Assembly (NCBI GenBank): GCA_947647735.1
Contig: CANSLJ010000001.1
Location: 1-64,000 of the forward strand
Length of the DNA: 64,000 nucleotides
Origin: an uncultured bacterium
Lineage (GTDB): Bacteria; Bacillota; Clostridia; Lachnospirales; Lachnospiraceae
Direction: 5' to 3'
The first letter of the stretch is position 1. Each line of letters opens with the position of its first letter. The position numbers and the translations under genes are program-made. The notes below the pieces were generated by a model, which saw only the letters and a list, made by a program, of their open reading frames with translations, ran no database searches and was not told the origin of the DNA. Below, in pieces: positions 1 to 1,484 of the stretch.

Positions 1-1030
1 TCGATTTAAATGCAACACAGGAAAAGAAATTATTATTTTCAATTCCTTTATCCATTAGTGCGTCGTGATTACAACCGCCTAAACAATACTTATACAATAT
101 ACATGTATCAATACACTTTCTTCTTCTCTTTACAGCCTGTCCTATCAAACTCTTAAATGCGTCATTTTCAAATACATTATTTATATGTTTTACATTTGAA
201 ATATTCCCTAAGCAAAAATCCTCTGGAAAATTACGAGAACATGGATAAATATCCCCCCTAGAGTTCATACATAAAAACTGCCCTAAACATGATGCATGAT
301 TACAGATTCTATGAAAACCGTCACCTTTGCACATTAAAGAAAAATAGGATTCAAAAGGGTCAACTCTGATATTACACTTGCTATCATGAATATAGTATTC
401 AAACAATCTTTTCATTGCATCACAATAGGCTTGTACACTATAGCTCAGTCCTTTTTCGTCAACCAGCGCACAGTGAAAAATAGGATTCAATCTAACATTC
501 AGCTCATTATCTCTATAAAATCTATAGACTTCAATTATTCTGTTCAAATCATCATTCAACAACACTTTAATAGTTGAAACTTTCTGATTGTCATTTCTTA
601 CCAGATCAAAAGCCTCTTCTGTTTTAGTTGACAAGCCTCTTGTATTTTCATTTGAATTTCCATCAAAAGAAAAGCCAAATGTAAAACCTTCTCTTTTAAG
701 AAATTTATATATTTCGGGAGTTAATAAAGTCCCATTAGTTTGAATGGCATTGGTTATACATATCCCAGTTTTTCTTTTTATATTATTTTCTACTTGAACT
801 ATTTGCTCAAAAAAAGGTCTCCCCACGATCAATGGTTCCCCACCATGCCAAATTATCCTTACCGTTTGGTAGACTCCTACGCACTTTTCCAACAATTCTT
901 CAAATAACTGAATAGGCATTATTTCAGTACCATATTCATAATCTGCATGATAACAATAAATGCAACGTAAATTGCAAGCATCTGTAGGTTTTATTAAAAT
1001 ATTTATCACATTAATTGGATTATTATTCAT
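1..1030 (-). CDS. Radical SAM/SPASM peptide maturase (3' end beyond window)
   Basis: Read directly from the minus strand; 343 codons are open from the ATG at 1030 to the window edge, and an in-frame TAA lies two codons before the ATG. Residues C19, C23 and C26 form the CxxxCxxC motif that holds the radical SAM iron-sulfur cluster, and WHGGEP at 61-66 is the usual GGE SAM-contact motif. The C-terminal half is a SPASM domain: C243, C248, C254, C264 and C273, then Cx3Cx5Cx3C at 306-320 and C338, ligands for auxiliary clusters. Such enzymes modify ribosomal peptides or sulfatases. Two tiny Tyr/Asp-rich genes directly upstream point to a peptide substrate. The ribosome site is weak. Only the last residues are missing. 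The substrate assignment is inference. Confidence 0.9.
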   Translation of the reverse strand, partial: MNNNPINVINILIKPTDACNLRCIYCYHADYEYGTEIMPIQLFEELLEKCVGVYQTVRIIWHGGEPLIVGRPFFEQIVQVENNIKRKTGICITNAIQTNGTLLTPEIYKFLKREGFTFGFSFDGNSNENTRGLSTKTEEAFDLVRNDNQKVSTIKVLLNDDLNRIIEVYRFYRDNELNVRLNPIFHCALVDEKGLSYSVQAYCDAMKRLFEYYIHDSKCNIRVDPFESYFSLMCKGDGFHRICNHASCLGQFLCMNSRGDIYPCSRNFPEDFCLGNISNVKHINNVFENDAFKSLIGQAVKRRRKCIDTCILYKYCLGGCNHDALMDKGIENNNFFSCVAFKS

Positions 1031-1103
1031 ATATTACACTTTGATGTATAAACACCTTATCTCCTTTTTACACTCTCATGACACATTAAATATTGTAACA
1101 AAT

Positions 1104-1131
1104 AAAAAGAGAAGAGAACAAGAACCTTCTC
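1104..1131 (-). terminator. Hairpin plus T-tract between precursor genes and maturase (attenuator)
   Basis: On the minus strand GAGAAG and CTTCTC pair around an 11-nt loop and are followed by TTTTTA. It lies 29 bp after the first-peptide stop and about 75 bp before the maturase start. The stem is short, so a partial terminator that keeps the enzyme below its substrate level is more likely than full termination. Confidence 0.45.
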
Positions 1132-1158
1132 CTTACTCCCTTCTCACATTATTCCTAA

Positions 1159-1260
1159 TCATTCATCTAGATTATCACTGTCGCCATGCTCTGTGTAATC
1201 AGTGTATACGCTAGCACAATCATCCGTATCGTACATTGTTTGGGAAATATATTCTTCCAT
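1159..1260 (-). CDS. Putative RiPP precursor peptide 1 (33 aa)
   Basis: A 33-aa ORF starting at ATG 1260 behind a strong GGAGGAATAAA ribosome site. The N-terminal part is acidic (MEEYIS), followed by DTDDCASVYTDYTEHG and an acidic tail. The Tyr-Thr-Asp and Tyr-Thr-Glu triplets recur in the neighbouring peptide, and it has one Cys (C15). It is co-oriented with a radical SAM/SPASM gene 128 bp downstream. Size, acidity, ribosome site and repeated motif fit a maturase substrate. No secretion gene is visible because the operon runs off the edge. The precursor role is inferred from context; the product is not identified. Confidence 0.72.
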   Translation of the reverse strand: MEEYISQTMYDTDDCASVYTDYTEHGDSDNLDE

Positions 1261-1313
1261 TTTATTCCTCCTATCCAACAAAACAAATCATTAATCCATC
1301 CAAACAGAACTAA

Positions 1314-1418
1314 TTACATGTGATCAGTATAATCAGTATATACTGTATAATCAACATAAGAAGTTCCCGTTTCTGAATCACCATTCTGGTCATAATACTC
1401 TTCAAATACTTCTACCAT
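1314..1418 (-). CDS. Putative RiPP precursor peptide 2 (34 aa)
   Basis: A 34-aa ORF starting at ATG 1418 with an AAAGGA ribosome site 7 nt upstream, first gene behind the consensus promoter at 1456-1484. The N-terminus is acidic (MVEVFEEYYDQNGDSE). The C-terminal 14 residues read YVDYTVYTDYTDHM, a tight run of aromatic-X-Asp units. Peptide 1 carries the related YTDYTEH, so the two genes look like diverged duplicates sharing a modified core. Aromatic-x-Asp triplets are known targets of three-residue-cyclophane-forming radical SAM enzymes; applying that here is inference. No cleavage motif is evident. Confidence 0.72.
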   Translation of the reverse strand: MVEVFEEYYDQNGDSETGTSYVDYTVYTDYTDHM

Positions 1419-1455
1419 AATTAATCCTTTCTGTATATATAAAACACTTTTTATA

Positions 1456-1484
1456 ATTATATTACAAACATTAAACACTGTCAA
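1456..1484 (-). promoter_or_regulatory. Perfect sigma-A promoter of the peptide operon
   Basis: On the minus strand TTGACA (1479-1484) and TATAAT (1456-1461) are separated by exactly 17 bp, all twelve positions matching consensus. It is 37 bp from the first precursor start. The insertion sequence's target duplication ends 8 bp upstream of the -35 box, so the promoter core is intact but any distal operator would be displaced. Confidence 0.85.

Follow-up and report, generated by a model that had tools for sequence, protein, structure and literature searches.

At the very start of the 64,000-nucleotide window analysed here, which covers the opening 64 kb of contig C1 (CANSLJ010000001.1) of an uncultured Lachnospiraceae bacterium (GCA_947647735.1; 4.1 Mb in 63 contigs, 86.6% complete), two short open reading frames (ORFs) for peptides of 34 and 33 aa lie 5′ of a radical SAM gene, all on the minus strand. 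The operon reads away from an ISAs1-family insertion sequence (IS), in the order promoter, precursor p2, precursor p1, hairpin and radical SAM gene. Judged from sequence, this is the anatomy of a minimal operon for a ribosomally synthesized and post-translationally modified peptide (RiPP). A first-pass annotation had already noticed two co-oriented ORFs of 33-34 aa with ribosome sites in front of a radical SAM gene, and the positions and both ribosome sites were confirmed; the promoter, the hairpin, the final 47 residues of the enzyme and a third gene are added here.

The promoter (TTGACA-17-TATAAT, 1456..1484, minus strand) lies between the IS element and p2 and matches the consensus at 12/12 positions. 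It stands out in its region, where the other eight of nine promoter-like sites match 9/12 and are about as frequent as in shuffled sequence (mean 5.7, sd 2.5). Precursor p2 (34 aa, 1314..1418, minus strand) is preceded by AAAGGA at 1430-1425 and, 53 bases further on, p1 (33 aa, 1159..1260, minus strand) by AGGAGG at 1272-1267, each ribosome site being 6 nt 5′ of its ATG. The 128 bases between p1 and the enzyme gene contain, 13 bases after the end of p1, a terminator-like hairpin (1109..1145, minus strand) of 16 pairs with a 5-nt loop, followed by TTTTTATTT; its fold has an energy of −22.1 kcal/mol (z −4.9), and the region holds two terminator-like sites against 0.1 per shuffle. The hairpin is probably an attenuator; it is placed where a partial terminator would hold the substrate above the enzyme. 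The enzyme ORF (1030-2; 1..1030, minus strand) gives the first 343 residues and is open at the contig end; its start lacks a well-spaced ribosome site, the nearest candidate being AAGGAG 30 nt upstream.

The enzyme carries the radical SAM motif C19-x3-C23-x2-C26 (PF04055, 55.5 bits over a cut-off of 29.5) and ten cysteines between residues 243 and 338, so that the full CxxxCxxC and the Cys-rich SPASM region described in the first reading both stand. By alignment, the SPASM-region cysteines of a homologue in genome G806 (TIGR04085, 42.9 over 27) are kept in the window enzyme, for which the Pfam SPASM model was unreported and TIGR04085 was not among the best 25 of 56 NCBIfam matches. Within these best 25 no family cut-off was reached: the daropeptide maturase DynA (NF041298) came first with 143.1 of 450 bits and the anaerobic sulfatase-maturating enzymes (anSMEs, TIGR03942) second with 138.9 of 349.45, while YhhB (67 of 445), FxsB (45 of 370) and AmcB (84.5 of 425) stayed far below and XyeB was absent. 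The closest solved structures by sequence are anSMEs (anSMEcpe, PDB 4k36/4k37). Plasmid records gave 127 matches and phage records 22, all under 60% identity (best 28.9% among the best 20 of 127 and 36.2% among the best 20 of 22, respectively), and those listed are called sulfatase maturase or radical SAM protein where they bear any annotation. A search of viral_contigs with the enzyme alone returned no match; the short stretches at L096-L099 of that collection (27-32%) and L017 from genome_contigs (24% over residues 3-127) were set aside as uninformative.

Contig C3 of the same genome extends the enzyme frame by 47 residues to a stop at L004:242-244, giving a full length of 390 aa. The two contigs overlap by 55 bp, C3 being identical to window positions 55-1. 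The joined tail continues to align with the G806 homologue past the junction and, taken alone, scores 39 against it (shuffle mean 22; 6/1000 shuffles as high). C3 opens (L004:1-101) with 55 bases that repeat window 195-249 in inverted orientation and run straight into the overlap, and its start looks like an assembly end of chimeric make.

Searches of 397 genomes of the family and 34 of genus g489 yielded two close relatives, G664 and G806, and the gene order is alike in all three genomes. In G664 the enzyme is divided between two contig ends, its parts matching at 42% identity over residues 9-81 and 35% over 246-360; two small precursor ORFs lie directly upstream. The G806 enzyme (224 bits) follows directly upon a single 228-aa ORF, the final 123 residues of which form an extended stretch resembling the small precursors. 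The peptide-enzyme linkage that had been proposed is thus conserved, with two precursors in one relative and one fused precursor in the other. In the fused ORF (L065:8209-8895) about 75 residues precede the leader, and no Pfam model scores above cut-off. Nothing else above 153 bits was shown among 392 genomes of the order, and 145 relatives of G806 contained no further close member; G807 (225 bits) came from the g489 search.

The five precursors of these three genomes (5/5) share a leader motif, [EK]xYxxQ, which stands early in the peptide part and reads EEYISQ, EEYYDQ, ESYTEQ, KEYIAQ or EKYIKQ. In p1 the leader MEEYISQ is followed by the core YTDYTEHGD, and in p2 the leader ...FEEYYDQ... by the core YVDYTVYTDYTDH. 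The pattern was chosen after the sequences were seen, and it occurs in 0.7-3.8% of each precursor's own shuffles. After the leader, many aromatic residues or histidines stand two before Asp, Asn or Glu. With core limits set by eye, the five pooled cores contain 40 such aromatic(i)-acid(i+2) pairs against 21.9 expected (0/5000 shuffles); among spacings 1 to 8 the one other excess is at i+5 (28 vs 20.6, 85/5000). The i+2 excess persists without G806 (20 vs 11.8, 3/5000) and is seen in each genome separately: 6 vs 2.7 in the window pair (82/5000), 14 vs 9.1 in G664 (65/5000) and 20 vs 10.1 in G806 (0/5000). In the window pair i+5 is raised as well (5 vs 2.4, 209/5000), and p2 taken alone holds 5 triplets against 2.3 expected (0.027 of shuffles). 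Counts in single peptides are modest, and the strong evidence for the triplets comes from sequence comparison between homologues, in which the middle residue varies (HSD, HQD, HHD, HTD, HID, YVD, YNE) and positions i and i+2 are kept. The triplets of the first reading are therefore conserved in kind, as Tyr/His-x-Asp with i+2 spacing. No NCBIfam or Pfam model above cut-off was found for p1, p2 or the relatives' precursors (NCBIfam only for those of G664).

Genomes were sampled, over 1996 genome-searches in all (repeats counted). In 329 phylum genomes a two-sequence profile, A1, rose above the usual anSME level in G1428 (222, 219 and 152 bits) and in G1327, G1303, G1374 and G1349 (170-185 bits); G1434 reached 149 bits. 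The placement of the enzyme was examined in a tree of 82 sequences. The window enzyme falls in a 13-leaf clade (support 0.94) with G806, G807, G1434, G1349, G1428 and genomes of genus g792. A separate 64-leaf clade includes anSMEcpe (support 0.94; 0.995 for 65 leaves with L061); its leaves were not checked individually against the anSME cut-off. L080, L096, L099 and L064 branch outside both. The tree is without the split G664 enzyme and its pieces, L017, duplicate clade loci (by name), contained sequences, and L019, L020, L052, L059 and L100-L102, which have no full CxxxCxxC/GGEP ORF. Asp277 of anSMEcpe, which we take to have a functional role, is present in 65/65 anSME-side leaves (L061 counted); in the 13-leaf clade the window enzyme has Ser there, G806 has Asn, eight leaves have Gly and three have Asp, so that loss of Asp277 is not a rule of the clade. 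Of the matches of 27-31% in relatives and family, which at first resembled members, those fetched (11 other places from 61 relatives and 29 new loci from the 397 family genomes) were rejected, as all of them fall on the anSME side; of the weaker matches, G664 was the one examined.

A leader, an aromatic residue or histidine two before Asp, Asn or Glu, and a free middle residue are features of three-residue cyclophane substrates. Taken with the gene order and control signals, they lead us to read the locus as a triceptide-like RiPP operon whose enzyme would join Tyr to the Asp two residues on, and we give this cyclophane reading as a whole a probability of about 0.6. That the enzyme modifies these peptides at all is a weaker claim, which we hold with high confidence. 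From these sequence features we infer the bond, the recognition of the leader and any biological activity. The strong promoter would yield abundant precursor mRNA, and the hairpin would pass a fraction of transcripts on to the enzyme genes. The enzyme would recognise each peptide by its N-terminal [EK]xYxxQ leader; its 5′-deoxyadenosyl radical would abstract a C-beta hydrogen from the Asp/Glu of a Tyr-x-Asp/Glu step, and that C-beta would couple to the Tyr ring two residues earlier, each three-residue cyclophane costing 2 Da. The product may be a string of three-residue cyclophanes, a chemistry reported for YxdB.

The third gene encodes a 300-aa partner protein (L004:252-1154) with its ATG at L004:252, 7 bases after the enzyme stop. 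No NCBIfam or Pfam model, PF01136 included, matches it. A relative, L019 in G072 (25% identity; E 2.5e-8 one-on-one, 2.9e-5 genome-wide), resembles the g792 protein L119 in turn (E 3e-12 one-on-one); L019 reaches 18.0 of 22.4 bits against PF01136, below cut-off, and L119:6043-7227 is a Pfam U32 member (42.6 over 22.4). Direct comparison by hhalign gave the partner 1.5% with the g792 proteins and 0.5% and 0.1% with two U32 proteins of its own genome; its match to L137 has an E of 0.016. A Cys-x3-Cys step recurs in the same region of the seven proteins compared, 6/7 fitting [GT]C[LIFV]xxC and L123 having ACIYGC. The U32 motif is given as CX6CX15CX3/4C in PMC6747719, which also states that the cysteines of UbiU/UbiV bind a 4Fe-4S cluster required for oxygen-independent hydroxylation. 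The partner shares with UbiU/UbiV/RlhA the clustering of cysteines and differs from them in pattern (CX3CX2CX3C at 181-192) and in having no direct Pfam match. By this analogy it may act as a further tailoring enzyme, possibly one that hydroxylates without oxygen, although that role is a guess.

Among the ten clade genomes searched with profile A3, which includes the window partner itself, strong members were found in the window genome and three g792 genomes only, with weak off-locus matches in G1428 and G1349. The radical SAM-U32 pair occurs in 6/12 clade loci, five of the six from g792. In 43 other loci (L006-L049 without L018) no credible U32-like neighbour was seen (tblastn L020 1.4e-4, L042 0.15; L019 not reported for the partner). 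L020, with 9.9e-4 in the genome search that found L019, is a probable false match that reads by eye as a RecD-like helicase. Plasmids and viral_contigs gave no match to the partner, nor plasmids to L019. Further U32-like relatives in G1157 and G1148 have different gene settings; that of G1148 (L138:1366-2535) lies amid glycosyltransferase-like genes (by eye), hinting that U32 proteins may occur in other biosynthetic clusters.

At ten of the 12 clade loci (window and G664 counted), aromatic-x-Asp/Asn steps occur in an adjoining protein or peptide; for the long repeat proteins, the stretches counted were chosen by eye. In G1349 (L120:1880-6002) an 815-aa repeat protein lies beside a 574-aa radical SAM enzyme and has 12 His-Thr-Asp in residues 36-235 (27 aromatic-x-acid pairs vs 10.6, 0/2000 shuffles); it has Ig-like parts just under cut-off, and the locus contains CpaF/CpaE-like genes (by eye). 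The 385-aa protein of G1428 has Tyr/His-x-Asp/Asn steps in residues 21-175 (21 vs 8.5, 0/2000). It also has Gly-Cys repeats and is surrounded by four radical SAM genes (L118), with amidase- and holin-like genes close by (by eye). Genus g792 contributes five loci from three genomes (L119, L121, L123, L131 and L149). In every one of them a radical SAM enzyme and a U32-type protein accompany a secreted-looking protein of 243-278 aa with Tyr-Ser-Asn/Trp-x-Asn runs such as YSNYSNYSNYGN. All five close radical SAM-U32 pairs found in g792 adjoin such Tyr/Trp-x-Asn repeat proteins, and a second radical SAM gene is next in four, those where the following stretch was read. Their i+2 counts are 18-22 vs 7-9 (0/2000 each, 4/5 loci tested), i+5 being likewise raised because the period is 3 residues. 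The gene sets are pilus-like by eye, and the loci are possibly a cross-linked surface fibre system. A repeat test over 115 loci passed three distinct proteins (L121, L119, L108/L120); it misses the G664 and G806 precursors and is hence insensitive to short or dense peptides. In the 43 loci above, 12 short ORFs with at least four triplets were found, none convincing by eye. The cousin operons of G807 (L066:8403-12756) and G1434 (L122:3870-7230) consist of a short acidic peptide and three radical SAM proteins, with a diaminopimelate decarboxylase-related protein in G807 as well.

The operon looks like cargo of a mobilisable element. Beyond the partner gene, C3 carries SRAP, Toprim/DUF3991 and MobA/VirD2-type relaxase genes, and the C1 side has genes for a mobilisation protein resembling NikA and for a helicase-domain protein of 2860 aa. 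Such a setting fits the rarity of the operon: in 61 relatives including its own genome there was no other near-full-length match above 31% identity or 116 bits, with short-stretch matches reaching 43%. The ISAs1-family element itself (1502-2755) is flanked by TAATAAACG at 1493-1501 and 2756-2764, a 9-bp target duplication, and the −35 box is 8 bases from the duplication and 17 from the IS. Its transposase ORF (296 aa) covers positions 1-243 of the 314 of the family model only; a second ORF (1564-2010), which overlaps it in a different frame, may carry the rest, and the transposase may be frameshifted. Leftward extension, from which transporter and peptidase genes had been hoped for, supplied the end of the enzyme and the third gene; the transporter encountered is of sugar type (ABC, named by eye), some 9.5 kb along C3.

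Several other explanations deserve weighing. The same operon could form another bond: Tyr-O could be joined to Asp C-beta as an ether, Thr could take part in the link, or the enzyme could carry out an epimerisation or another change at the Asp C-beta. Every YTD step contains Thr, the best profile match is DynA followed by anSME, and daropeptide-type enzymes are reported to form C-O, C-C or C-N links (PMC11002830, PMC9055067). Against this stand the fixed i and i+2 around a varying middle residue, as in three-residue cyclophanes, and the replacement of Tyr by His, which speaks against a phenol-oxygen linkage; we regard a different bond as rather unlikely. Far less probable still is an anSME, or a relative of one, beside two chance ORFs. 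The nearest solved structures and the second-best NCBIfam match listed point that way, yet the enzyme lies far under the 349-bit cut-off, outside the anSMEcpe clade, and has Ser in place of Asp277, so that the association with sulfatase maturation that the first-pass annotation had named as a danger was not borne out. No sulfatase was seen among the neighbouring annotated genes, the genome itself not having been searched for sulfatases. Chance ORFs are also at odds with the exact consensus promoter, the hairpin, the i+2 enrichment, and a leader and triplets common to two other loci. Precursor cores of sactipeptides and ranthipeptides have several cysteines for thioethers; with one Cys in p1 and none in p2, this class was rejected.

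It is also conceivable that the peptides are unmodified acidic/aromatic metal binders and that the enzyme acts elsewhere, given cores rich in His, Tyr and Asp and no peptide exporter or leader peptidase recognised among the genes examined. A common N-terminal leader, a constant i/i+2 distance and a tight order of genes that recurs in three genomes make this improbable. About as improbable is decaying cargo, captured with the mobile element and now silent or broken by the adjoining IS: the element with its duplication does adjoin the promoter, but it lies outside the promoter hexamers, and none of the four ORFs is interrupted when the contig overlap is read through. With the linkage, the triplets and a placement away from anSMEs all holding, the candidate RiPP operon first proposed is supported.

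The cyclophane reading nevertheless has its own difficulties. No cyclophane-family cut-off was reached among the matches listed (GrrM/OscB, 89 of 310 bits), the window and G806 enzymes are just 34% identical, and the node joining them has a support of 0.50. Asp277 is kept in G1349 and in two of the three G1428 genes. G807 and G1434 pair with each other inside the clade (0.998) and lack an aromatic-x-Asp repeat neighbour. Among the peptides, p1 triplets alone are not above chance (3 vs 1.8 expected, 0.23 of shuffles), p2 holds one non-fitting YTV, and in G664 the i+3 spacing is raised too (13 vs 8.9, 195/5000). The adjacency of enzyme and partner rests on the 55-bp overlap beside the chimeric-looking contig end, and the partner's homology to U32 is transitive at best, through L019 and the g792 proteins. 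With profile A3 at 0.001 no U32-like partner was found in the G664, G806, G807 and G1434 genomes, so the protein is not needed family-wide. Finally, no C39-type peptidase that might serve export and leader removal was found in the 86.6%-complete genome.

As for known systems, YxdB (WP_226048651.1) is reported to join C3 of Tyr with C-beta of Asp (Sugiyama et al. 2022, as described in the review PMC11002830), and the same review reports a His-Ala link for HaaB, Tyr-Arg and His-Arg links for YhhB, and aromatic-x-residue substrates for OscB, XncB, MscB and YhhB. As described, YxdB resembles the window system in its radical SAM/SPASM enzyme, short precursor and Tyr-x-Asp steps. In contrast to that description, the window operon has two precursors, an [EK]xYxxQ leader, a hairpin and a U32-like partner, and its relatives exchange Tyr and His. 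The GrrM/OscB, YhhB, FxsB, XyeB and AmcB maturases belong to the same broad superfamily as the window enzyme, and FxsB, XyeB and AmcB act on aromatic-x-residue substrates. DynA/DarE daropeptide maturases act on Trp-containing single cores, unlike the cores of the window, and anSMEcpe, the closest solved relative, differs in clade, Asp277 and cut-off. Since a Tyr-x-Asp bond is reported for YxdB, the core chemistry would not be new. Novelty appears to lie in the precursors as a family, in the U32-like partner and in the connection to long repeat proteins. In the passages seen of PMC9062424, a map of the radical SAM superfamily, Aro-Xaa-Asn and other motifs are given, with no Tyr/His-x-Asp series. 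By title or abstract start no literature link between U32 and RiPPs was found, most subscription papers being outside this coverage.

If the cyclophane reading is true, the operon would offer a compact and readily testable Tyr-x-Asp system: one enzyme would serve two substrates that carry a defined leader, and its homologues would accept His in place of Tyr at the same step. Related gene sets may act on His-x-Asp peptides and long repeat proteins, and the window operon may thus belong to a wider, little-described family. U32-like proteins, associated with oxygen-free quinone hydroxylation and RNA hydroxylation and, as hydroxylases, with prephenate as the source of the hydroxyl group, would become candidate peptide tailoring enzymes. 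More speculatively, and we consider it doubtful, a two-enzyme anaerobic module of a radical SAM cyclophane former and a U32-like hydroxylase may work on aromatic-x-Asp/Asn steps from peptides of 33-34 aa to the long Tyr-Ser-Asn repeat proteins of g792, with partner-less relatives working on the G664 and G806 peptides and the His-Thr-Asp repeats of G1349; the repeats would be armoured by strained rings and hydroxylated without O2. Cyclophane chemistry may then build the repeat proteins of pilus-like loci besides small peptides.

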